Source: a virus
Direction: 5' to 3' (one strand)
Virus record (IMG/VR): IMGVR_UViG_3300042691_033239
Span: 1-64,000 of that record
Length of the DNA stretch: 64,000 bases
Positions 339 to 41,923 of this stretch are shown piece after piece. The notes beneath the pieces were generated by a model that saw nothing but the letters and a program-made list of their open reading frames with translations, searched no databases and was not told the DNA's origin. Position numbers and translations under genes: made by a program. How positions within the stretch are numbered: position 1 is the first letter of the stretch; each line of letters begins with the position of its first letter.

Positions 339-2012
339 ATGAAGACATACGCCGAAAGAATTGCATCTATTTCTCCCCTCATGGTAGAGAATTACGAGAA
401 AATTGAAAAGCTTCGCAATGATGGGAAGAATCCATTCCGCAATGATGCTATGTATTCACATTCATTGGGCATGTTCTATTATAAATACAAAGATCTATCA
501 AAAGAAGCTATTGATACTGAGAATTCGTGTGATTCGGAAGAATGGTCTTTCAATGGAAAGGTTCGTTTTATCCGGAGAATGGGCAAGGCTATTTTCCTTA
601 AGATTCAGAATGAAAATACATTCACCGTAACAAAGCCATCTTACGGAGAGTTTGTTCCAACAGACAATTTCCTTCAAATCTTTGTCTCTAAAGAAACGGT
701 TGGGGAAAGTGTTTTCTCAGACATTGATCATTTAGACATTGGAGACATCATTAGTGTTTCCGGCGTTGCAATGAGAACAAAAACTGGCGAACTTTCTCTC
801 AATGCAAAAAATCTACATGTTCTTACAAAGAGCATTCGATCTCTTCCAAAGGTCAATGGATTTGCAGATGTAGAGACTCGATATCGTCAGCGGTATGCAG
901 ATCTTATCGTCAATGATCTTTCAAGAAAAAGGCTGATAACGAGAACAAAAATCATTTCTATAATCAGAAGTATTTTTTCTGGATATGAATATATGGAAGT
1001 GGAAACACCTATGCTTCATCCAACTTTAGGTGGTGCAAATGCGCGTCCATTTATTACGCATCACAACGCATTGGATATGGAATTCTATCTCAGAATTGCG
1101 CCCGAGCTTTATCTTAAGAGATTGCTTGTTGGTGGATTTGAAAAGGTATTTGAGATCAATCGTAATTTCAGAAATGAAGGAATGAGTACGCAGCATAATC
1201 CAGAATTCACAATGTTGGAATTCTATGCCGCATATAAAGATGTCAATTATCTAATTAATACAATTGAAGATATTTTTATGTCGATTGCGAACAGCATGAG
1301 GTATGGAAAAATTCTTTTCGATCCTCCAGAAGTTGATGAGAATGGAGATCTTCCTAAGAATTGGGGTCTTTTTAGAGATCCTGAAACATATAGTCTTTGT
1401 ATTATTGTTGATGGAAGAAAGATTGAGATCCCGTCAAATAAAAATCTAAGATTCAATAGAATTTCTATCATTGATGAAGTGCAAAAGCTTCTTGGTGTAG
1501 AAGACAGAGAATCAGTTTGGAGTCGCGATACTCTTGTGAACTATTGCAATCAGAATAATGTTCATATTCCCCATGGTGATGAGGGAAATATCATCTATGC
1601 AATCTTTGAAAGTAAGATTGAGAAAAACATTCAAGATCCTACATTTGTATTGGATTATCCGACAAGTGTATCCCCATTGGCAAGAAGGAACGATAAGGAT
1701 CCTAGAATTGTGGATAGATTTGAGTTCTTTATCATGGGAAGAGAAATTGCCAATGGATTCTCTGAATTGAACGATCCGGAGGACCAATACAATCGATTTG
1801 CAGAGCAGCTAAATAATGCGAGAGAGCATGGTGACGCAGAGGCTATGCAGATGGATGAGGATTATATCCGCGCCCTAGAATATGGAATGCCGCCTGCTGC
1901 TGGCGCTGGCATAGGAATCGATAGGCTCGTTATGCTTTTCACTGGTGCTAGCTCGATTCGTGATGTAGTGTTCTTCCCACACATGCGAAAAGAAATCGCA
2001 GAAGGAGAATGA
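339..2012 (+). CDS. lysS: Lysyl-tRNA synthetase, class II
   Basis: Activates lysine with ATP and charges tRNA-Lys. The 557 residues hold the full class IIb layout: an N-terminal anticodon-binding OB fold (about 65-165), motif 1 (about 202-225), motif 2 (268-296, containing RNEGMSTQHNPEFTMLEFY) and motif 3 (about 520-545, containing GIGIDRLVMLF). The LysRS signature GREIANGFSELNDPEDQ is at 468-484. The OB fold excludes the shorter EpmA/PoxA paralogues. Compared with E. coli LysRS (505 aa, from memory) there are about 40 extra residues after motif 2 (about 325-365). All catalytic blocks look intact, so an active enzyme is expected. The ATG follows AAGAGGAAAC, a good ribosome-binding site. A phage-borne LysRS is uncommon. 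It could replace or supplement the host enzyme, or have a second role such as dinucleotide synthesis; the sequence cannot decide. Confidence 0.96.
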   Translation: MKTYAERIASISPLMVENYEKIEKLRNDGKNPFRNDAMYSHSLGMFYYKYKDLSKEAIDTENSCDSEEWSFNGKVRFIRRMGKAIFLKIQNENTFTVTKPSYGEFVPTDNFLQIFVSKETVGESVFSDIDHLDIGDIISVSGVAMRTKTGELSLNAKNLHVLTKSIRSLPKVNGFADVETRYRQRYADLIVNDLSRKRLITRTKIISIIRSIFSGYEYMEVETPMLHPTLGGANARPFITHHNALDMEFYLRIAPELYLKRLLVGGFEKVFEINRNFRNEGMSTQHNPEFTMLEFYAAYKDVNYLINTIEDIFMSIANSMRYGKILFDPPEVDENGDLPKNWGLFRDPETYSLCIIVDGRKIEIPSNKNLRFNRISIIDEVQKLLGVEDRESVWSRDTLVNYCNQNNVHIPHGDEGNIIYAIFESKIEKNIQDPTFVLDYPTSVSPLARRNDKDPRIVDRFEFFIMGREIANGFSELNDPEDQYNRFAEQLNNAREHGDAEAMQMDEDYIRALEYGMPPAAGAGIGIDRLVMLFTGASSIRDVVFFPHMRKEIAEGE

Positions 2013-19677: not shown

Positions 19678-21696
19678 TTAGAATACGTTCATATCAAGAA
19701 CATGAACTCTTCCATAGTAATCCGCACGGAGCATCTTCTTACCATATCTTGTCATAACACCCTTTCTTGGCGTGAAATCTTCTGTATCATACAATGTTGG
19801 TGTGATGATAAGAGGAACATAAGGAGCATAAACATAACCTGTTTCCAACCATGTTTGTCCCTTGAATCCAACAAGAATCTGGTTAGGTACAAAGTACGGG
19901 TCTTTGTATACCACGAATCTATTGGAAAGTGATCCCATCGGCTCAACACCAATTGACATTGGATTGCTTACCTGTCCCGCGCCGTCTACGGAGTAGTTTG
20001 GACGGTAATAGGATGAAGCTTCAAGCATTGTGGATACTGCTGGTGAAGTAACCAAGAAGTTACCTGCTCCGCGAAGAGACTTACGGTGAATTTCGTTGGA
20101 AACGTCAATAACAGTTTCGATAAGCGTTTCATACCATTCTCTCTGAGTTCCAACCTGCGTTGGTCCTGGAGCAAGCGTGCTTGAACGAAGAATTTCTTCA
20201 CCAGTCAACTTATTGACAACCTTACCATTTAGACGTGACCAATAGAATACTGCCGCCGAAGCGCCCACAAGAAGGTCATTCAAGATTTCTCTATCGACTT
20301 CAAGTGCGATCTGCTCTGAAAGAACAGATGTTAATTCAAGGTCTGCATCCAATGTGTGATATGCATTCAAGTCCTGAGCAAGTTCTGGCGACCAACGAGC
20401 ACGAAGCTTACGTGTGGATGCTGTTACTGCTACAGATTCAATACGGATATCGATTTCTGGAATTTCAGGCGTAGGCATTCCGTTTGCTGATCCCTGACGG
20501 AAATCAGATTCAAAGGTAGGTACTGCTACTGTCTGACCGTCTGCGTCAACCGTTAATGTCGCTCTTATTGGATAAGAAGCTGAAAGAACCGGAGTTCCGT
20601 TCAACGTTGCTACACCTGGGTTTGCATCTGTAGAATCAGCGAATACGATCAATGCGTAAACATGGTCGGTTCCGATTGTGAAGTTTACTGCCTCTTCGAT
20701 ATCAGCCTCAGTTACTCCATTTCCTACGATTGCAGCAGCCGTAGCTGTTGGTCCCGCAGCAAATAGCTGATTCCATCTACGATACTGAGTTACATCAGAA
20801 CTTCCAGATACAGTTAATTCAGTGATCTTTGTTAAGTCACCTCTTGTCTGCTGTGAACGAGATGTTGGCGTAAATGTTCCCGGATCTGTCGTTGCAAGTG
20901 TCGTAATAATACCTGCTGTATCTCCGGCAGCTACACCACCCCAACCAGCAGGAGCAGCAACAAATCGATTTGTTGCGCCTGGTGTTGCAAGAGGATCTAC
21001 GTTTGCCTGAAGCCTACGTCCATAAGATCCAGAAGAAAGGTCAAGAATTGCATAACGCAATGTTCCCAACGCTGCTGCTGTTTCAAGACGAGGATCGCCT
21101 ACTAATGTTGCGAATGGCAATTCACCTACGCCAGAAGCAGTTCCAGTTACCAATGTTCCTGTATGGGATACCTTGTATACGTTATATTCCCATGGTGAGG
21201 AATATCCCATACGGTAATCATACATACCACCTGTTCCGTCTGCACCTGCACGAACCTTAGCTCCAAGAGGATCGCCAAAGATTGATCTATTTGCATTATA
21301 TGCATTGAACCCTACATTGTTTCCATATGTAAAGTCAAGATAGAACAATAGTCCGGAAGGAAGTGCCATGGACTGCAATGATACCAATTCATTTGCAAGC
21401 AAGCCTGCAAATACTCTACGTACCATTGGGAATGCAATATTGGAGAAACCACGAAGAGTTCCCGAATCTGCACCCAATCCAGTTCCGATTGCGGACTGTT
21501 CCTTGATGATCTGAGCAGCCTGGTTTTCCAAAAGCTGTCCAAGAGCATTCTTAAGTGGTTCGCTTCTAAGTCCGCCTAAAAGACCCGTTGCTTCCCATTT
21601 CTGCATGATCTGCGCACTACGACGCTTTCTTTCCTGATCCGCAGTGATAATTCCCTGTGTTACTGCCCTCATTGGGACTTCATATCTATTACTCAT
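19678..21696 (-). CDS. Major capsid protein, T4 gp23-like
   Basis: 672 residues. The T4 gp23 hallmark region is clear: LLENQAAQIIKE (55-66) and FSNIAFPMVRRVFAGLLANELVSLQSMALPSGLLFYLDFTYGNN (84-127, with the core at 88-120). The LysGlu at 65-66 (IIKE) matches the position of the gp21 cleavage of T4 gp23 at residue 65, so proteolytic maturation is expected. The segment about 415-490 (IDIRIESVAVTASTRKLRAR and onward) matches the conserved core. It is about 150 residues longer than T4 gp23 (521), the extra sequence lying in about 225-400, Thr/Ala/Gly-rich and likely a surface insertion. AGGA lies 7 nt before the ATG. It is the last gene of the head cluster, followed by a strong terminator. Confidence 0.96.
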   Translation of the reverse strand: MSNRYEVPMRAVTQGIITADQERKRRSAQIMQKWEATGLLGGLRSEPLKNALGQLLENQAAQIIKEQSAIGTGLGADSGTLRGFSNIAFPMVRRVFAGLLANELVSLQSMALPSGLLFYLDFTYGNNVGFNAYNANRSIFGDPLGAKVRAGADGTGGMYDYRMGYSSPWEYNVYKVSHTGTLVTGTASGVGELPFATLVGDPRLETAAALGTLRYAILDLSSGSYGRRLQANVDPLATPGATNRFVAAPAGWGGVAAGDTAGIITTLATTDPGTFTPTSRSQQTRGDLTKITELTVSGSSDVTQYRRWNQLFAAGPTATAAAIVGNGVTEADIEEAVNFTIGTDHVYALIVFADSTDANPGVATLNGTPVLSASYPIRATLTVDADGQTVAVPTFESDFRQGSANGMPTPEIPEIDIRIESVAVTASTRKLRARWSPELAQDLNAYHTLDADLELTSVLSEQIALEVDREILNDLLVGASAAVFYWSRLNGKVVNKLTGEEILRSSTLAPGPTQVGTQREWYETLIETVIDVSNEIHRKSLRGAGNFLVTSPAVSTMLEASSYYRPNYSVDGAGQVSNPMSIGVEPMGSLSNRFVVYKDPYFVPNQILVGFKGQTWLETGYVYAPYVPLIITPTLYDTEDFTPRKGVMTRYGKKMLRADYYGRVHVLDMNVF

Positions 21697-24721: not shown

Positions 24722-25867
24722 TTATCTACCCGGATCTTTAAACATTCCCGAAACTTCTGAATTGTATGCATGGGCAGTTGCAGACAATTGCCCACTGGAA
24801 ATCATGCTATGATTTGACATATTCATTTTTTCTTGAATTCTCTTCTGTACTTCACTCATTCCACTATTATCATGCGTATTATTTGTTGGTGGAGCTTGAT
24901 TCTTCATTTTTCTTAATTTCATTTCTGGCGAAGATGGATCTACCATTGTAGGAGGAAGTGACATTTCCGTATCTACAGCGCCCATCGGAGGCGGAATGAC
25001 AGGCATTGCTGTATAATTATTATTCTGCATTCTAGGCATTGGAGGTGGCATCATCATTGCCTCATTATTCTGTTGTGGCATATAATGATTTGGATATGTC
25101 GGATCCATCATAGGGTTATTTTGTCTAGGAGCATGATTATGCATTGGCATTGGCGGCATCATTGAAACCGCAGGATCAAATGTCGGCTCCATCATTGAGT
25201 AATCATAGTTATTTTCATTCAACATTTGTCTCTGAGGGACTTGCTGTTGCGCAGCCATTGCCTGCTGCCTTCTCATTTGCTGTTCTCTCATTGCATATTG
25301 CCTTACTTCATTAGCATATTGAACTTGATAGTCATCATCTGGAATCGGTTCTGTTCCCTCAAAGAATGAGGCCATTCCCTTCTTATTGCTTCTAGGAACG
25401 CTAGGGTCGCCAAATGAGGCACCACCACCGCCACCGCCGACACCGCCATATCCATAGCCGCCCATCCCAGAAACTACTTGCTGCATATCAGAATATCCAG
25501 ATTGACGATCTACGCTAAAATCACCATATCCTTCCCCCTCATCTTCAAATACACGAACAAGAGGATCATCATACTCAGATGGCTTATTATTTTTAGGAGG
25601 CTGATTACTTGCCGCTTGTTTTCTTCTTTCCGGAGCATTTGAATTTTGACCATTTTGCGGTCTATTGCTATTCTGCTTTGCGCCCTGCGTGAATTTTCTA
25701 GTAATCTCTTCTTCTTTCTTTTTGAGTAAGCCTCTGATTTCATCAGATATATCTTCGATTACTGCTAATCTTATGGATTCAATCACATCTTCCAGCGTGT
25801 CATCTTCTAGCAAAATTTCTTTTACTATCATTCTAAACTGATCTAAATTTATTTTAAGTGTAGACAT
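24722..25867 (-). CDS. Asn/Met/Pro-rich putative internal head protein
   Basis: 381 residues. N-terminus: MSTLKINLDQFRMIVKEILLEDD, an amphipathic helix ending in LLE, like the candidate capsid-targeting peptides elsewhere in the window. A charged helical region follows (about 25-60, KKKEEEITRKF). Then come glycine-rich (GYGYGGVGGGGGG, about 134-146) and Met/Pro/Gln/Asn-rich stretches (about 190-330) of low complexity. The C-terminal 60 residues contain a charged helix (MSEVQKRIQEKMNMS). AAGGAATAATA precedes the ATG. It lies between the protease and scaffold genes, where T4 encodes core proteins, so a prohead core or packaged protein is the best guess. Confidence 0.68.
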   Translation of the reverse strand: MSTLKINLDQFRMIVKEILLEDDTLEDVIESIRLAVIEDISDEIRGLLKKKEEEITRKFTQGAKQNSNRPQNGQNSNAPERRKQAASNQPPKNNKPSEYDDPLVRVFEDEGEGYGDFSVDRQSGYSDMQQVVSGMGGYGYGGVGGGGGGASFGDPSVPRSNKKGMASFFEGTEPIPDDDYQVQYANEVRQYAMREQQMRRQQAMAAQQQVPQRQMLNENNYDYSMMEPTFDPAVSMMPPMPMHNHAPRQNNPMMDPTYPNHYMPQQNNEAMMMPPPMPRMQNNNYTAMPVIPPPMGAVDTEMSLPPTMVDPSSPEMKLRKMKNQAPPTNNTHDNSGMSEVQKRIQEKMNMSNHSMISSGQLSATAHAYNSEVSGMFKDPGR

Positions 25868-26317: not shown

Positions 26318-27460
26318 TTACCTATTCTCCATTTTTAATCTATTGTAATTCTCAGCAATACGATCAAGTTCATTGTCTAAATAAAAGTTTCTTCCACTCT
26401 CATTCAGATACATTTTTATTTCATCTGGCGTAACTTCCCTTCCTTCCTTGAAAACAAATGCGCCTGGAGTTGATGGTTCTGAAACAATATCCCAACATAC
26501 AAGCATAAAATCATCTTGCACTACGTTAGCGCCATTTACCAATTGGGTAGATCCTAATCCTCTTGAAGAAACACCCAGCGTGCATTCCGCCAAAACTATT
26601 GATTTGACTAGATCTCCCATTGGGGTAGGAATTAGCTCTAATCTGCCCCATAGTTCGTTGGGATTCTCTCTAGACCACCATGTTTCGGTAATAACATGAG
26701 ATGTCTTCTGGATTGAAACAACTACCGAGTCTGGATGATCACAATTTCCAGTAAAAAATGCATCGCCTTCTCTTTTAGCAAGCCAATTTCCAGAAGGAGT
26801 GGTAACGCAATATACCATTCCATCATAATTAACTTTATCTATATTTACATTTTTTCCGCTAATAAAATTAACAGAAAGTCCATATGTTTCATAAAAGATC
26901 TTCTTTTTATTTTTTGATAATAGAGATATTGCTTTTTCATAAAATGGATTTCCATTCTTATCAAAAAATACCATTTTATGACTATCAGTAACGAGTATAT
27001 CAAGATTAGCATCAGAATTAGTAAATCTGATCATATCGCCATGATGCATTCTCTCTGTTTTAGCTAAAACAGGCTCAAGAATAAGTTCTTTGGTATTCAT
27101 ATCCATGGAAAACACCAACTCACCAATCTCTACGTCTTTAAGAAACTTCCATCCGGATCCTGTCATTATCTGAGTTTTATCATCAACACATTCCCCGTAA
27201 CTACTTCTTTGGGCTATAACCCTTTGATAATTATCAACTTCTCTCTTTAGGATTTTATGAGGATATATTCTTTTATTGTGATTTAATGTTTCAGATTTTT
27301 GTAATACTCCCTTTAATATAATTTTACCATTAGAGCGTTTTTCAACATCAGCCGCATAAAATTTTTCGGGAGCTTCCCTTAGTATACGTATAGGATTTTT
27401 ATTTGATGACAATCCGCTAATACTTTCATATTTCTTTTCGCCATTATATGTATCTGACAT
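26318..27460 (-). CDS. Prohead maturation protease (gp21-like) interrupted by a mini-intein
   Basis: 380 residues, of which 91-239 are an intein; the spliced protease would have 231 residues, close to T4 gp21 (212, from memory). The N-extein carries the substrate-binding region (KGVLQKSETLNHNKRIYP, 51-68). The C-extein begins with Cys240, then DHPDS, where His242 is the expected catalytic histidine. The catalytic serine is in LGVSSRG (Ser298 or Ser299). The enzyme cuts scaffold, capsid and internal head proteins after (L/I)xE-type sites during head maturation. AGGAG lies 10 nt before the ATG. The order portal, two unknowns, protease, core, scaffold, capsid follows T4. Protease activity would depend on intein splicing. 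Confidence 0.92.
   Translation of the reverse strand: MSDTYNGEKKYESISGLSSNKNPIRILREAPEKFYAADVEKRSNGKIILKGVLQKSETLNHNKRIYPHKILKREVDNYQRVIAQRSSYGECVDDKTQIMTGSGWKFLKDVEIGELVFSMDMNTKELILEPVLAKTERMHHGDMIRFTNSDANLDILVTDSHKMVFFDKNGNPFYEKAISLLSKNKKKIFYETYGLSVNFISGKNVNIDKVNYDGMVYCVTTPSGNWLAKREGDAFFTGNCDHPDSVVVSIQKTSHVITETWWSRENPNELWGRLELIPTPMGDLVKSIVLAECTLGVSSRGLGSTQLVNGANVVQDDFMLVCWDIVSEPSTPGAFVFKEGREVTPDEIKMYLNESGRNFYLDNELDRIAENYNRLKMENR
26744..27190 (-). other. Mini-intein in the prohead protease
   Basis: 149 residues spanning Cys91 to Asn239 of the protease frame. The N-terminal splicing block starts CVDDKTQIMTGSGWKFLKDV; block B has the T..H pair in TDSHKMV (about residue 158-164); the C-terminal blocks read YDGMVYCVTTPSGNWLAKRE and end FFTGN followed by extein Cys. 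The penultimate residue is Gly instead of His, as in other phage inteins I recall. The length leaves no room for a homing endonuclease. Cys1, Asn at the end and Cys+1 are all present, so splicing should be possible. The insertion is beside the catalytic DHP motif. Confidence 0.93.
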
Positions 27461-27485
27461 ATTTAAAATTCTCCTATAATAAACT

Positions 27486-28786: not shown

Positions 28787-31387
28787 TTATTCCTCCTCAT
28801 TGATCTTAAATCTAAATATACTGCCATTTCCGTCTGTCAATTTTTTATTTTTCTTGCTTTCTCTAATTTCTGCTTTTTTGGCATCCATTTGAGATTTTGC
28901 AGAATTTTCATTATTATTTTTTGAAGCTTCCTGTGATTTCATCACTTGTCTAACCGCATCCAATTCAATCTTCTTCTTACTTTCCTTCTCTTGTCTTTTC
29001 TGAATCACATCCTGACTTGTCATTGTTGTTGTCGTTGGTTTTGTAGCCGATTGCGTTGCCGTATTATTTTCAGGTTCTTTTGTCTCCTTGGAATCCGCAT
29101 TATTAATAATTTTTTCCATTTTTTCTGTAGTATCATCCAAGAATGATTCAATAGTCCCATTTTTACCAGAAACCAACTCAGACAAATACTCTAAGTTTAT
29201 TTCATTGATAATATCCTGGTCATCTATATTATTATCTAATTCATTTTCCATTAGTTTGACATTGAACATCATACTATCAATCTGATCATCAAATTTCCTT
29301 GCGTATTTTCCGCTTTCTGATCGTAATATATCTTCAATGGATTTTTTATTTGGTCTTACCTTTGAATCATTTATAAATGGCTTTTGCCTTACCGCATCAT
29401 TGTGTCTTCCTGTATCAACAGATATATGTCTTCTGCCAGTTCCATGATTGTCTTTACCGGATATTCTAGCTGAACTCCCCGGCTCTATTTTTCTGCCAGC
29501 CCCAGGCGCTCTCTTTCTGTCTTTTGTGTTTCTTGCTGTAGGTTCTCTATATTCACCATCTTTTCTCTTTAGATCATCATCTTCTCTTGGAGGAACTAAA
29601 TCAGACATAGGGGCAATGGCAATTGCATCCCTAATATCTTTCTTCAATGTTTGCTTCCTTCTTCTATCGAATTGAGCTAAATCATCTTTGGATTTGTAAA
29701 CTTTATTTCCTTCCGGATCAAATGGGCCTTGGAAAAGATCTTCGATTTCACTTGAAGGTTCTGCCTCAGCATCACCGCCAGTGTCACCGCCAGTGTCACC
29801 ACCAGTGTCATCTCCACCGAAATCATCGGTTCCTAAATCGTCAAATCCACCACCAATGTCACCACCGCCGAAATCATCTCCACCCGAATCATCGGTATTA
29901 TCTTCCATAGGGTCGGATAATCCAAATTCAGACCCGGCACCGCCCAATTCATCAAAAGCGCCATCCTTAAGTTTGCCCAATATTCCTTCAAGCTTAGCTT
30001 CTCTGATTTTATCTTGCGTTACTTCTTCAATTTCATCGTCATCCCATCCCATTACTCTCTTATACAAATATCTTTGAGGAATGCCAGCAGGAGCAGAAGA
30101 TAATATCTCAAACTTCTGTCTGAAAATTTCCATTCTCTGTTGCTGTTCTAATAATGAAGATGAAGCTAAAGTAATATCAAAATCTCTAAGTGCATCTTCG
30201 GGTGAAAATCCGTGAAAAGTTAAGTGAATTAATGCTATTTTTTTAAGCTCTGAAACTATTAGTTTTTGAATGCGCATAATCTGCTGAGCGAACATAATGT
30301 TTAAACCCGTCAATGCTGTTTTTGCAGCGTCGGATGAATCTGTGTAATTCAAATAAGGCTTTGGTACGCCAACAGCAGTAAATAATTGGGCCTGTAAATA
30401 CTCCAAATCGCTTGTGCCGTCCGTCCACTGACCTCCCGGTAGTGTTTCAATGGTTGTGCCTTCGCCGCCTCTAACACCCACATAATAATCATTCTCAAGA
30501 GACAATGCACTATGTCTAAGATCCAGTCTTCCGGTATCATTGTCCTGCAAGATCTGATTCTTCATTCTTGTCTTTTGTAATTCGATGAATGTCTCGACAT
30601 CTTCTGGCGGAAGATTGCCAACATCAATCTTAAAAACTCTTCTTTCTGGTGCTCTAACAATTCGATATACCATCAAAGCATCTTCAAGAAGATTAATCAT
30701 TCTCCATATTTTTCGGGAAGATTCTAGAACAGACGTTCCATAAGGTAAAAACTCATCACTAAACTTAAGTCTAAAATGAACCATTTGCGAGGCATCAATG
30801 ACTCCCGCGCCTTCTGCATTTACTCTGTATTTTACTTCCCATAAACCTGTCTGTTTATTGTGGTATTCTTCTCTTTCCACTGAGTCTACAGGCAATGGTC
30901 TTGCGCCAACTACGCCATAATCCCCTTCTATTTGAAGATACATGAAATAGTCGCCATACTTACATAAGTTTCTTGCAAGAGGATATAGTTCCGTAGACAT
31001 ATTTAATATATCTTCAAATAAAACATTCAATATGTTTTTTATTCTAGGATTATTTGATTTAATAATAATGGTTCTGCCCATCTCATCCATTCCAGAAACA
31101 GATGTGGCGTAAACGTCAAGAGCCCTGGCAATAATTGGAGTAAATTCCATTACACCAAAGTCCTGATAGCGGTATCCTCTGGTTACTGCATTTCCATTAT
31201 AATAATAAGGATCTCTTACTCCTAAGAAATTGGAATCATGAAGAACCCTTCCTAATTCTGCTTTTTTCTCACTCCTCAATTCCTTGGGAACCCTCATTCT
31301 TACTTTAGGGCCGTTATTGAAGATTCTTTGAAATGTATTTATGAAATCTGCTGTATTATTCTTTGGTCTTTTTTTCTTTTCTGCCAT
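28787..31387 (-). CDS. Portal protein (gp20-like) with long low-complexity C-terminus
   Basis: Forms the dodecameric portal at one capsid vertex through which DNA is packaged. I choose the ATG at 31387 (866 residues), with AGGAAGG 14 nt upstream; the ATG at 31414 has none. About the first 490 residues resemble T4 gp20 in order and character, with LEYLQAQLFTAVGVPKPYLN (about 345-365) and an adjoining helix (ALTGLNIMFAQQIMRIQKLI) typical of portal proteins. T4 gp20 has 524 residues. Here the C-terminus adds over 300: a Gly/Asp repeat (DDFGGGD, TGGDTGGD, about 515-565), a basic segment and a Lys/Glu-rich end. The extra part may lie inside the head. It follows the terminase gene directly. Confidence 0.93.
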   Translation of the reverse strand: MAEKKKRPKNNTADFINTFQRIFNNGPKVRMRVPKELRSEKKAELGRVLHDSNFLGVRDPYYYNGNAVTRGYRYQDFGVMEFTPIIARALDVYATSVSGMDEMGRTIIIKSNNPRIKNILNVLFEDILNMSTELYPLARNLCKYGDYFMYLQIEGDYGVVGARPLPVDSVEREEYHNKQTGLWEVKYRVNAEGAGVIDASQMVHFRLKFSDEFLPYGTSVLESSRKIWRMINLLEDALMVYRIVRAPERRVFKIDVGNLPPEDVETFIELQKTRMKNQILQDNDTGRLDLRHSALSLENDYYVGVRGGEGTTIETLPGGQWTDGTSDLEYLQAQLFTAVGVPKPYLNYTDSSDAAKTALTGLNIMFAQQIMRIQKLIVSELKKIALIHLTFHGFSPEDALRDFDITLASSSLLEQQQRMEIFRQKFEILSSAPAGIPQRYLYKRVMGWDDDEIEEVTQDKIREAKLEGILGKLKDGAFDELGGAGSEFGLSDPMEDNTDDSGGDDFGGGDIGGGFDDLGTDDFGGDDTGGDTGGDTGGDAEAEPSSEIEDLFQGPFDPEGNKVYKSKDDLAQFDRRRKQTLKKDIRDAIAIAPMSDLVPPREDDDLKRKDGEYREPTARNTKDRKRAPGAGRKIEPGSSARISGKDNHGTGRRHISVDTGRHNDAVRQKPFINDSKVRPNKKSIEDILRSESGKYARKFDDQIDSMMFNVKLMENELDNNIDDQDIINEINLEYLSELVSGKNGTIESFLDDTTEKMEKIINNADSKETKEPENNTATQSATKPTTTTMTSQDVIQKRQEKESKKKIELDAVRQVMKSQEASKNNNENSAKSQMDAKKAEIRESKKNKKLTDGNGSIFRFKINEEE
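29773..29808. repeat. Three 12-nt tandem repeats in the portal gene
   Basis: CACCGCCAGTGT at 29773-29784 and 29785-29796, then CACCACCAGTGT at 29797-29808, encode the TGGD repeats of the portal C-terminal extension. Such units expand by slippage, so copy number may vary between related phages. Confidence 0.7.
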
Positions 31388-31465
31388 GTGTTCTTTATCT
31401 GCCTTCCTATTCATGAAGTTGGCTTGTAATATCTTTTATTACACACTTTTCTTGATTATCTATAT

Positions 31466-31524: not shown

Positions 31525-33252
31525 TTAGTATTTTGGTATCCAATGGTTTAATTTTTTCTTTGTCTGCGGATTTGTGCCGCCTGATCCCCCAAGAATATCC
31601 ATCACAAAATCATTTACAACGCCGCTTCTTTCAGTAAACCCATTCAATGCTGATTTATTTGTGTAAACTCCCGAATGCTGTTTATAAGGATCATCAATAA
31701 ATTTTGTATGTGGCATGGAGTCTGATCTTGTATTGACAATTGAAATTGAGTTTCCTAATGCCTTTGTCATTTCTAATTTTGTTTTTGCATATCCCATTGC
31801 TGTTTCTCTACACCATATAGCAAATGCAAAAGCCATTACTAAGTCGTCGTTACATCCCTTCGCTGCCTGTAATTTTGAATTTTTCCAAATAAATGTATTA
31901 AATTCATCCATTAGTCTTTCTGAGAATGGTGTATATCTTCTTTTCTCTAATTGCTGTATCATTTCAGTGATAAGCCTTTTTCTTGACTGATCTTGTGTAT
32001 TAAATCCAATTGAGTAATCATCATTATCATAGCCAGCATATACATTAACAACCGTAGGCATACCCCTTTTATCTTCAGCATACATATTTGGATATCCATA
32101 TTCTTTAATTTTTACAATTGTAACCTGAGCTACCGAGTTATTTTCTATACATATTGTTGCATTATTCCAATAATGACCAATTCCTATTAATAATTTTGCA
32201 AAATCTTCTGGTAATATTTTTCCTTGGAATTCTGCAACCTGCATTCCATTGCCAGCATTAATAACTTGAATAGTTGAATAGTCATCACTTTTACCTCCGG
32301 AAACGTCCGCTCCGATTACATAAGTTTCATCCCCAACCGGCCTATCCCATTCATAATATTTATTATGAGGAATCATAGGATTATTCAATCCTTTTCTTTT
32401 TATTAAACCATAATGATCTCTTAATTCAGATGAAAGAACAGCATCACCCGAAACAGCAAAGCTACAGAAGAATTCCTGCTGAATAATATTTTCATCCTGA
32501 ATCATGTTCCTTTGTTTTTCTAGCCATGCCGCATCTCTTGAAGGATCTACATCCCAAGGCAATTCCATCCACGTCCAGTCATTCTGCCCATTCTTTGCAC
32601 CAATAAATAAAGTATAAAATTGTCCTGACGTTCCATTTGGAGAGGACAACATCATAATTTTACCACCCGTAGAAATTGCAGGAGCGATAGATGCCCAAAT
32701 GCCATCAGGACCATCAAAGCCATCAATAAATGCAGCTTCGTCAACAATAAGATATGCAATTGCTTGACCACGCAAAGATCCAATACTCGATCCCGTTGCC
32801 ATAACCTTAGATCCATTTAGCCAAGATATTGCAGTTGCATTGTTTTCTTTAATTGGATATAACTGCTTAAAATGATTAGGAAGATAATCGTAAGCAAACT
32901 GCACTTTGGCTAGGAAGTTCTTCGCTGTTGTCAAGTTCGTAGCAATTGCGGCCACCAACTGTGAATCATGAAATAGACAATACCATAGACAAAATGCTGC
33001 ACCAACCGTGGTAACACCCAACTGTCGAGATTTCGCAATGATTGTTTTATCCTTACTCTTCATGTTTCTCAGAATATCTTTCTGATATGGGTGAAGAGTA
33101 AATGGAATTGTTCCGCCCTTATTGGGAGACTGAATCTTTACATATTTTTGAATAAAGAAAATAGGATCGCTTTTGCATTTTATAATGTCATCTGCGATTT
33201 CTTTCGTAAATTTCGGTGTAGGCCCGCCGCCTCTATTTGATTTTGTTGCCAT
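31525..33252 (-). CDS. Terminase large subunit (gp17-like)
   Basis: 575 residues. The packaging ATPase/nuclease that drives DNA into the prohead. ATPase: Walker A-type AKSRQLGVTT (73-82), Walker B YLIVDEA (167-173), coupling motif SSPNG (203-207). RNase-H-like nuclease: GADVSGG with Asp316, CIENN with Glu370 and NDDLVMA with Asp469/Asp470. Length is close to T4 gp17 (610). The adenine-binding segment HPYQKDIL (54-61) is also present. GGAG lies 14 nt before the ATG. The protein looks complete and active. In T4 the sheath and tube genes follow the terminase; here the portal gene does. Confidence 0.97.
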   Translation of the reverse strand: MATKSNRGGGPTPKFTKEIADDIIKCKSDPIFFIQKYVKIQSPNKGGTIPFTLHPYQKDILRNMKSKDKTIIAKSRQLGVTTVGAAFCLWYCLFHDSQLVAAIATNLTTAKNFLAKVQFAYDYLPNHFKQLYPIKENNATAISWLNGSKVMATGSSIGSLRGQAIAYLIVDEAAFIDGFDGPDGIWASIAPAISTGGKIMMLSSPNGTSGQFYTLFIGAKNGQNDWTWMELPWDVDPSRDAAWLEKQRNMIQDENIIQQEFFCSFAVSGDAVLSSELRDHYGLIKRKGLNNPMIPHNKYYEWDRPVGDETYVIGADVSGGKSDDYSTIQVINAGNGMQVAEFQGKILPEDFAKLLIGIGHYWNNATICIENNSVAQVTIVKIKEYGYPNMYAEDKRGMPTVVNVYAGYDNDDYSIGFNTQDQSRKRLITEMIQQLEKRRYTPFSERLMDEFNTFIWKNSKLQAAKGCNDDLVMAFAFAIWCRETAMGYAKTKLEMTKALGNSISIVNTRSDSMPHTKFIDDPYKQHSGVYTNKSALNGFTERSGVVNDFVMDILGGSGGTNPQTKKKLNHWIPKY

Positions 33253-38700: not shown

Positions 38701-38729
38701 TTGACACATGGACACCATCTGTTTATACA
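38701..38729 (+). promoter_or_regulatory. Candidate plus-strand promoter, antisense to the SbcD-SbcC gene
   Basis: TTGACA (38701-38706), 17 nt, TATACA (38724-38729). It lies in the gap after the minus-strand SbcD-SbcC gene and points into it. No plus-strand gene follows, so if active it would make antisense RNA to that gene's 3' end. Confidence 0.35.
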
Positions 38730-41700
38730 TTACCGTATCTTACATTAGAATAGCCTTGGGCGTCAACATTAACATTGATAACATGGTCCACAAGATCTTT
38801 GATGGCGTCTATATGAGAGATAATGACGATGTTTTTGAAGCGAGACTTAAGTGACTCGAACAATTTTCCTATGACCATTCTATTATCATCATCTAAAGCA
38901 CTAAATCCTTCATCTATAATAAGCGTAGAGAACTTAGGCAATGTGCTTATCTTTAACAATGCGACTCTTATAGCCAATGAGGCAATCATCCTTTCAAAAC
39001 CAGAAGCCAATTCAATATATCTTCTTGGCTTATATTCTTCATCAATATAAATTCTAAATTTAGGATCTTTCAAATCAAATAATACAGTAAATGGAACGGC
39101 ATCCGCAAGAATATCATTTATTTCCATATTAATAATATCTTGCATATCTTCCAATACTTTTTGAACAATGCCATTTCTGGACAATGCCTCTATGATTAAT
39201 TCATACACTTGATATTCATCTCTTGCGGATTTAAGATTTGATAATTCTTTTTCCAATACTTCAATTTGTCTTTCTATATTTCCAGACATTTTATTCATAT
39301 TATCTTTATCATTCTTTTCAGACGCTAACATTTTCTTTGCATTGTCTACTAATAATTTAGTATTTTTTATTTTTTCTAATATTTCTTTTTTTTCATTATT
39401 TAAATCTTCTATATCAACAGAGTTTTCTAATTTTTCATTAAAGACTCCAAGTAATTCTGTTTTTGTTTTAATTTGATTAGAAGCCAATTCTAATTTATTT
39501 TCAAAATTAGATATTATATTTTCTGTTTCTTTGATAGACTTATCAAAAGAATAATATCTATTGACCATTTGGCTTTTAATAAGAATATCATTTTGAATAA
39601 ATGATATTTCATTTTCATCAAGAAGAGGATATTGATTTATCTTATCTTCTAGATCCTTAATCTTCCCTCTAGCTTCAAAAGCATTTGAGATAAATTTGCA
39701 TGTTGGGTATTCATTCCCACAAGGAACTTCAGACAAAGGATTCGCAAGCTTTCTTAGATTTTCTAAATCTTTCTTAAGACTATTTACTTTGTTTTTATCT
39801 TCATTATTTTTTGAAATTCTTGCATTATGGTCGATAATAATATCTTCATTTTTCTCTATATCCGAAAAACTAATATTTTCTTTTTCTTTTATCAGAGATT
39901 GAAGTTGCCTTTTACTTTCCTCTACTTGAGAATTTATTTTAGATAATCCGGTTTTTAATATATTGATTTCATTATTACATTTTTCTATATCCGCAATAAT
40001 ATTACTTTTTATATTATTCTTGTGAGATGCAATTTTATCATCAATTGCTTTAAGCTGAAATTCTTCCGTGGCCAAGACACTCATGATTTGATCATAAGAT
40101 GTTGTGAGAATTTCTATCTGTTTATTTTTTTCTTCAATGTCTAGTATATTTTTAGCTAAAGATTGTTTGTTATTTTCTATATCAATCAAAATATCTGATT
40201 CTTGCCTTTTATTATTAGAAACTTTGGATTTAATAGGTGCGGCCATTGATTTAGCAATTTCCATCTGTTGATCAAAGAAATCTAAATCAAGAACATTAAT
40301 CAAATAATCCTTCCTTGGTGATTCAGTCATATATATAAATTTATGAATTTGATCTTGCGGGGATATACTTGTTGTTACATAATCTTCCATAGATCCAATC
40401 ACAGACTGAATCACTGTGTCTGTTTTTTGTCTTTGGATACTGCTTATATCTTCTGAATTCTTATAGATCTTAACATTCGTCTTAGACTTACCACGATCTC
40501 CTGCATCTTTCGCATCGCTTTCTTTCCATTCATAATCTCGTTCTATTGTATATTCAGTTCCGGCAGAATTTAGAGTTAATTTGATAGATCCATAATTACA
40601 CCGATTATTTACCGCATAGGCTGGGCTTGGAATTCTTCGAGAAAGATTGTTGAATGCGCAGAGAAGAATATTATCCACAACAGAAGACTTTCCTATTGCG
40701 TTTGGACCAAATATACCAACAACACCATTAAGAAGTGAGAAGTCAATATAGTTATCTGTTCCATAAGAAAACATATTATCAAATTCAAGTCTGTTTATAT
40801 CAAACATGACATTTCTTATTTGTTTTTCTTTATCTTGCGTTTCGACAGATGAAGATATTTGATGATATATTTCTTCATGAATTTCGAGAACTTTATCTTT
40901 TACTTCGCTTGAAGTATTTTTATATCTACAAAAATCATTTAATAATCTTTTTTGAATATTTAAATCTCTATAATTGATATTATGATCAGAAATGTGGTTA
41001 TTGCCGGCACTTAATTTATCATACTTTTTAATAATTCTTTTTTCTTTTGGTAAGAATTTTGTAATAATCGGAGATATGATATTTTGAATTTCAGCATCAC
41101 TAAGATCATCTTCAATAATGAATCGACCGTATGCATTCTGTGGAGGATCCTGATCTAATGTGCTGTAGGATACTTTACCATTTCTCACTGTATATGTAAT
41201 AAATGGACACATATCATCTATTTTAATAAATTCTTTTTTATATTCAGTTTTAGATGAAATATCCCAAATAAAATATCCTTTGTCATTTGCCTCTCCATAA
41301 TCTTGTTGAATTAAAGATCCGGCATACCAAATGCTATCGTCATTGCCAATAGATTGTTTCTTGTGAATGTCTCCCAAGAATGTATAATCAAAAGGATCAA
41401 ATATATCTGCATTTATTTTTGTTTCTAGCTTATAACCAACATCTGTTTTACTGCCATTGATAGCGCCATGGTACATTCCTATATTAATTTTATCTTCTGA
41501 TAATCTTGAATATACCTTTTCATTCCATTCCTCTGATGAGTCAAGAATGGACAAATTGCAAAAACAAATATTACCAAACTCCGCTATTCCTGAATATTTC
41601 AGATATTGTATTCTATCTGATTCAAGTGCATTGTAAATGGGAGTAATTGCGTCTTGCCTTTTCTGATTAGAAAGATTGATATCATGATTACCCATGATCA

Positions 41701-41923
41701 TAATAAGAGGAGCAATGTCTGATAGATTTTTAATGAAATTTGCCGCCAATTCAAAATATTCAGCAGATAGATTTTCTTTTGTATGCGCAAGATCACCTAA
41801 CATACAGATATAATCTACATTGTTTTCTTTTAATGATCTGTATAGATGATTGAATGAGTATTTGTATCTATCGTGGTATCTAAAATTACGTATATGAATA
41901 TCTGAAATATGTGCTATCTTCAT
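38723..41923 (-). CDS. Fused Mre11-Rad50 (SbcD-SbcC, gp47-gp46) recombination nuclease
   Basis: 1066 residues in one frame. Residues 1-360 are the Mre11/SbcD/gp47 nuclease: SDIHIR (7-12), GDLAH (43-47), GNHD (78-81), YHG (His152) and GDIHKKQ (184-190). From about 370 it is Rad50/SbcC/gp46: Walker A GPNAIGKSS (406-414), a long coiled coil (560-910) with a hook PCGNEYPTC (734-742), signature ELASGFERM (971-979) and Walker B LIIDEGFSALDDDN (1001-1014). T4 uses two genes, 47 and 46. The hook spacing C-x6-C differs from the usual CxxC. The complex resects DNA ends for recombination-dependent replication. The gene overlaps the ruvC-like gene by 4 nt (ATGA). Confidence 0.93.
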   Translation of the reverse strand: MKIAHISDIHIRNFRYHDRYKYSFNHLYRSLKENNVDYICMLGDLAHTKENLSAEYFELAANFIKNLSDIAPLIMIMGNHDINLSNQKRQDAITPIYNALESDRIQYLKYSGIAEFGNICFCNLSILDSSEEWNEKVYSRLSEDKINIGMYHGAINGSKTDVGYKLETKINADIFDPFDYTFLGDIHKKQSIGNDDSIWYAGSLIQQDYGEANDKGYFIWDISSKTEYKKEFIKIDDMCPFITYTVRNGKVSYSTLDQDPPQNAYGRFIIEDDLSDAEIQNIISPIITKFLPKEKRIIKKYDKLSAGNNHISDHNINYRDLNIQKRLLNDFCRYKNTSSEVKDKVLEIHEEIYHQISSSVETQDKEKQIRNVMFDINRLEFDNMFSYGTDNYIDFSLLNGVVGIFGPNAIGKSSVVDNILLCAFNNLSRRIPSPAYAVNNRCNYGSIKLTLNSAGTEYTIERDYEWKESDAKDAGDRGKSKTNVKIYKNSEDISSIQRQKTDTVIQSVIGSMEDYVTTSISPQDQIHKFIYMTESPRKDYLINVLDLDFFDQQMEIAKSMAAPIKSKVSNNKRQESDILIDIENNKQSLAKNILDIEEKNKQIEILTTSYDQIMSVLATEEFQLKAIDDKIASHKNNIKSNIIADIEKCNNEINILKTGLSKINSQVEESKRQLQSLIKEKENISFSDIEKNEDIIIDHNARISKNNEDKNKVNSLKKDLENLRKLANPLSEVPCGNEYPTCKFISNAFEARGKIKDLEDKINQYPLLDENEISFIQNDILIKSQMVNRYYSFDKSIKETENIISNFENKLELASNQIKTKTELLGVFNEKLENSVDIEDLNNEKKEILEKIKNTKLLVDNAKKMLASEKNDKDNMNKMSGNIERQIEVLEKELSNLKSARDEYQVYELIIEALSRNGIVQKVLEDMQDIINMEINDILADAVPFTVLFDLKDPKFRIYIDEEYKPRRYIELASGFERMIASLAIRVALLKISTLPKFSTLIIDEGFSALDDDNRMVIGKLFESLKSRFKNIVIISHIDAIKDLVDHVINVNVDAQGYSNVRYGNV

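Follow-up and report, generated by a model that had tools for sequence, protein, structure and literature searches.

The prohead protease gp21 of phage T4 cleaves itself in the prohead, a step that is possibly linked to its activation and is poorly understood (PMC9026906). The intein AceL NrdHF, which has Met at N3:12, Cys at C2:4, Thr at C1:5, and Gly at C1:6 and lacks both catalytic His residues, splices within minutes, and its C2:4 thiol was modelled 3.0 Å from the N-scissile carbonyl (PMC7891396). Class 3 inteins are defined by the lack of Cys at position 1, Cys at C2:4, and a WCT triplet (PMC7891396). No description of inteins in gp21, prohead protease, or head maturation protease was found in the openly accessible literature. 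The precursor described below matched 2,235 records of published phages, of which none covered 80% of it, and the only gp21 inteins that turned up were unannotated ones at a second site (site b). Inteins of this kind are known, and those of gp21 apparently constitute an undescribed family with two insertion sites.

The window analyzed here is the whole stretch of 64,000 nucleotides at positions 1 to 64,000 of the IMG/VR virus record IMGVR_UViG_3300042691_033239. Its gp21 gene is surrounded by T4-type head genes in the order terminase, portal gp20, gp21, a 381-aa ORF without a family match, and gp23, as follows.

31528..33252, minus strand: terminase large subunit gp17 (PF03237, phrog_2)
28790..31414, minus strand: T4-type portal protein gp20 (PF07230, E 1.2e-55)
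about 27471-27475, minus strand: Shine-Dalgarno-like AGGAG of the gp21 gene (upstream sequence)
26318..27460, minus strand: gp21-type prohead serine protease precursor gene (PF03420, phrog_207)
19681..21696, minus strand: major capsid protein gp23, without an intein (PF07068, E 8.5e-69)

The gp21 ORF encodes a 380-aa precursor made up of the exteins and a predicted intein. It was matched by Peptidase_S77 (PF03420, Pfam) in two stretches (E 5.4e-18), by the head maturation protease family PHROG 207 (phrog_207, E 6.8e-40), and by the T4 gp21 structure 5JBL (E 1.2e-9), and the family profile together with the conserved HP and SSRG motifs places it in the Peptidase S77/T4 gp21 family. No match was found to the alternative prohead protease family, PF04586, and this identity was dropped in favor of S77. 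His242 in the HP motif presumably corresponds to the catalytic His of T4 gp21 (T4 His85), and the SSRG motif is taken to hold the catalytic Ser (T4 Ser140).

Other genes in the window were also inspected. The 381-aa ORF (24725-25867, minus strand), which lies between gp21 and gp23, is rich in Gln, Met, Asn, and Pro, and its position suggests that it encodes the scaffold protein. Compared with the Pfam family, the gp23 protein (672 aa) carries a long insertion in the first half, and its sequence has no intein features. A complete bacterial-type lysyl-tRNA synthetase gene (339-2009, plus strand; NF001756, E 5.9e-178; TIGR00499, above cut-off) is either phage-borne or host DNA at the end of the record, and no tRNA genes were found in the window. 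A 1066-aa ORF (38726-41923, minus strand) has an N-terminal SbcD/Mre11-type metallophosphoesterase domain (PF00149) and matches an SbcC/Rad50-type profile over residues 275-1065, and it is apparently a fusion of the functions of gp47 and gp46, which are separate genes in T4.

In the protease precursor, 149 residues are inserted in frame between Glu90 and Cys240 (SYGE^CDHP), two residues before the catalytic His. Intein-free gp21s are continuous across this point and align with no gap on either side. The junction reads GE-C-DHP in the window protein, GE-L-(D/N/G)HP in the first relatives aligned, and GE-C-DHP in the nearest relatives. The features of the precursor are listed below.

27191..27460, minus strand: N-extein, residues 1-90, ending in SSYGE
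26744..27190, minus strand: predicted mini-intein, 149 aa, residues 91-239, gp21 site 'a' (from sequence, relatives, tree, and fold)
27188..27190, minus strand: intein Cys1 (Cys91), putative first nucleophile, invariant in all site-a inteins
26978..26989, minus strand: TDSH of block B/N3 (T158-D-S-H161), followed by Lys162-Met163 (N3:11 and N3:12), with Met at N3:12 as in AceL NrdHF
26807..26809, minus strand: Cys218 (intein Cys128) at C2:4/F:4, the position of the class 3 internal nucleophile (PMC7891396)
26744..26752, minus strand: intein C terminus Thr237-Gly238-Asn239, the penultimate residue being Gly, not His
26741..26743, minus strand: Cys240, putative +1 nucleophile, a Cys also found in intein-free relatives (GECDHP)
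26318..26743, minus strand: C-extein, residues 240-380 and stop codon, beginning with CDHPDSVVV
26735..26737, minus strand: His242 in the His-Pro motif, which is invariant in gp21 alignments
26564..26569, minus strand: Ser298-Ser299 of the SSRG motif, invariant in the gp21 alignment

The original prediction had placed a 149-residue intein at 26744-27190, and these boundaries proved exact to the base. It had also named Cys1, the block B T..H, the terminal Asn, Cys+1, and a penultimate Gly, all of which were located (Cys91, T158-D-S-H161, Asn239, Cys240, and Gly238, respectively), and its statement that the intein adjoins the CDHP with the catalytic His agrees with Cys240 beginning this motif and with the continuity of the intein-free relatives there. 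The claim that the intein has no endonuclease held as well, since Pfam detected no endonuclease domain in the insert and LAGLIDADG_3 had no match in the whole record. No further inteins were found in the record by the Pfam profile, which also missed the gp21 intein itself. The GC content (31% in the intein, 36% in the exteins, and 34% in the window) is not informative on recent arrival.

Within the insert, the strongest and only notable Pfam match was Hint, with an E value of 3.9e-4 that is below the cut-off. In the AlphaFold model of the precursor, the intein part mostly had pLDDT values of 75–92, and Foldseek of this model gave 45 PDB matches at E<=1e-3, most of them inteins or hedgehog and BIL domains, along with gp21. 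The intein matches had TMt values of about 0.6–0.79; AceL NrdHF ranked second (TMt 0.79), and the top match was the Tetrahymena BIL2 domain. This top match and the sub-threshold Hint match would fit a BIL or hedgehog-type HINT domain rather than an intein, but such an identity is extremely unlikely, as the insert interrupts a conserved enzyme in frame where the homologues run on, ends in Asn followed by Cys+1, and is related to LAGLIDADG inteins of the same site. Blastp against the same-site mini-inteins L152 and L129, with E values set to a 1e8-residue database, gave matches over the full insert length (E 1.7e-32 and 2.8e-30, respectively), and this whole-length similarity to same-site inteins of other phages rules out a chance match. 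By the published definition, the insert is a predicted class 1 cis-splicing intein of the mini type, because it has Cys1, which class 3 inteins, with their Cys at C2:4, lack. Class 3 was ruled out by Cys1 and by Met in place of Trp in the WCT triplet, with Cys at C2:4 and Thr at C1:5 being present.

Inteins at the same site were searched for in IMG/VR with a DNA pattern for T-G-N-C-D-H-P and then by a profile search; the site-a and empty loci are thus the product of motif-directed scans and not a census. An intein was found at the identical point of gp21 in 13 other IMG/VR contigs. The site-a inteins (L129, L133, L139, L140, L142, L144, L146, L152, L155, L162, and L163) share with the window intein the host protein, the insertion point, and Cys1, TxxH, Cys at C2:4, (G or H)-N, and Cys+1, with Cys at C2:4 in all relatives compared, and their splicing domains are 32–45% identical to that of the window intein. 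Most of them have a length of about 355–360 aa and a LAGLIDADG endonuclease, whereas the 149-aa window intein has none. LAGLIDADG PF14528 was detected in both full-length site-a inteins tested, L140 (E 1.6e-5) and L146 (E 3.1e-9), and the remaining full-length ones align along this domain. The other site-a mini-inteins are two, L129 (161 aa) and L152 (163 aa). The full-length inteins of L162 and L163 end with His-Asn, not Gly-Asn.

GECDHP was present in 61 of the 145 uninterrupted gp21 copies collected. Since the empty site of intein-free relatives already reads GECDHP, Cys+1 is older than the insertion. The intein-free gp21s L164-L233 represent a large clade in which Cys is conserved two positions ahead of the catalytic His; T4-like relatives have Leu there. 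In the mini-intein-bearing gp21 of L152 (3995-5122, plus strand), the protease motifs read CDHA for CDHP and SSRA for SSRG, and this protease may be altered or inactive. A close-protein scan with the intein alone retrieved only distant inteins, and a pattern for V-H-N-C-D-H-P matched inteins of another protein only and none in gp21. Likewise, the matches in Escherichia virus TH47 and Prevotella phage Lak-A1 were inteins of proteins other than gp21.

A pattern for ALGEL(D/N)HPxC revealed 24 contigs with an intein beginning one residue after His-Pro (GELDHPx^C), designated site b. This site is also occupied in uncultured phage LR756508 and in Nitratidesulfovibrio phage SRB7757/Desulfovibrio phage 7757, and a close-protein scan with the LR756508 precursor found no inteins. 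Sites a and b are five residues apart and straddle the catalytic His motif. The site-b inteins (L105-L128, LR756508, and SRB7757) resemble the window intein in host protein, in having the HP motif at the junction, and in their related splicing domain, but they sit beyond His-Pro (GELDHPx^C...GN^S) rather than before it. They are almost all full length, in contrast to the window mini-intein, the 154-aa intein of L105 being a mini-intein, and their +1 residue is Ser, except for Cys in L121, whereas that of the window intein is Cys. The splicing domain of one site-b intein, L123 (2875-4623, plus strand), grouped with the site-a inteins. L123 is the one intein carrier of a GEL-reading subgroup inside the extein clade of the site-a carriers, and its gp21 lineage is without the Cys that a site-a intein requires. 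This suggests, with modest support (80/83), that the intein shifted between the neighboring sites.

In the splicing-domain tree, the window intein fell inside a clade of eight site-a inteins (97/93), as sister to the other seven, which comprise full-length inteins and the mini-intein L129. A single clade of the three site-a mini-inteins was rejected (p-AU 0.0015), and a clade of the window intein and L129 alone was borderline (p-AU 0.032). Because a single mini-intein clade was rejected, the endonuclease was most likely lost more than once. In the extein tree, the site-a carriers were scattered in one clade among intein-free gp21s, whose members in this clade mostly read GECDHP, and site-a intein presence changed 9 times, with at least 7 changes forced by well-supported branches. 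With about 50% identity to its closest relative, the window gp21 is divergent, and it lies on a long branch, with L152 as its neighbor in the extein tree; this join may be a long-branch artefact, and the history of gain and loss of the window copy itself is unsure because of this divergence and branch length.

The occurrence of LAGLIDADG inteins at the same site, the position of the window intein within the site-a clade, the scattered presence, and the empty GECDHP sites argue for descent from a homing intein. Very probably, the insert is a splicing-competent mini-intein that descended from a mobile LAGLIDADG intein homing to site a of gp21 and whose endonuclease was deleted; its ancestor would accordingly have carried the endonuclease. 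After translation, the HINT domain would excise itself, with Cys1 attacking the N-scissile bond, Cys+1 accepting the branch, and Asn149 cyclizing. Ligation would restore SSYGECDHP, a motif already found in the relatives without an intein, and the protease would regain its catalytic His loop for head maturation. The unspliced precursor would be inactive, and the intein, which probably confers no benefit, would persist because an imprecise deletion would abolish an essential enzyme.

The window intein lacks the penultimate His and the block-F His, which are usual but not obligatory intein features. Their absence would fit a dead or cleavage-only HINT domain, which does not splice and leaves gp21 inactive or working as two fragments. 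This is very unlikely, as the same residues are absent from most same-site relatives, including endonuclease-bearing ones, and from the well-splicing AceL NrdHF, and as all other catalytic residues are kept despite splicing-domain divergence to about 45% identity. In addition, gp21 is essential in T4 (PMC9026906). The penultimate Gly is no sign of slow splicing, since AceL NrdHF with the same residues splices in minutes, and the window intein would presumably splice, and fast.

The original prediction had further proposed that the intein could delay activation of the protease and thus head maturation. From the position of the insert, it is plausible that the precursor cannot form its active site before splicing. 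The AlphaFold model of the precursor had low confidence at residues 84-89 and 241-252, and the intein-free control, with a mean pLDDT of 48 and a junction below 50, was too poor to compare. Slow or conditional splicing that keeps the prohead protease from acting before head assembly is complete, with the intein kept for regulation, would suit an insert two residues upstream of the catalytic His and the three to four separate endonuclease losses that left splicing domains intact. Nevertheless, the proposal gained no positive support and is unlikely. Close relatives with the identical active site but no intein were interspersed with the carriers, a patchy presence that is against a required timer, endonuclease-bearing selfish forms occupy the same site, and AceL NrdHF, whose C-terminal residues are atypical in the same way, is fast (PMC7891396). 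Descent from a selfish element explains these data without a timer.

A redox trap is possible in principle, as Cys1, Cys C2:4, and Cys+1 would be close to one another. The expectation for Cys1 and Cys C2:4 comes from the location of the C2:4 thiol of AceL NrdHF near the N-scissile carbonyl, and this presumed proximity is the sole structural basis seen for the redox idea; the N-extein has no Cys near the junction to serve as a trap. That the mini-inteins surviving repeated endonuclease loss were co-opted as a switch timing protease activation, for example, a redox-gated one (Cys1/Cys C2:4/Cys+1), is likewise unlikely.

Two intein sites straddle one catalytic His of an essential virion-assembly protease, full, mini, and empty alleles can be compared, and the intein-free relatives already have the required Cys+1. 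These alleles form a natural set for studying how homing inteins select active-site positions and are retained there, and they are suited to asking why endonucleases vanish and whether leftover mini-inteins ever gain a use.

Compared with T4 gp21 (PDB 5JBL), the window gp21 has the same extein family with the conserved HP and SSRG motifs, but T4 gp21 has no intein, and the residue two positions before the His is Leu in T4-like relatives and Cys in the window protein. Among solved inteins, AceL NrdHF (PDB 6ZGQ) was the best sequence match, although a weak one (E 0.023). Both inteins have Met at N3:12, Cys at C2:4, Thr at C1:5, and a penultimate Gly and lack the C2:13 His. AceL NrdHF is a split class 3 intein with Ala1 and Ser+1 in ribonucleotide reductase, and its Arg at N3:11 partly compensates, whereas the window intein has Cys1, Cys+1, and Lys at N3:11 and resides in gp21.
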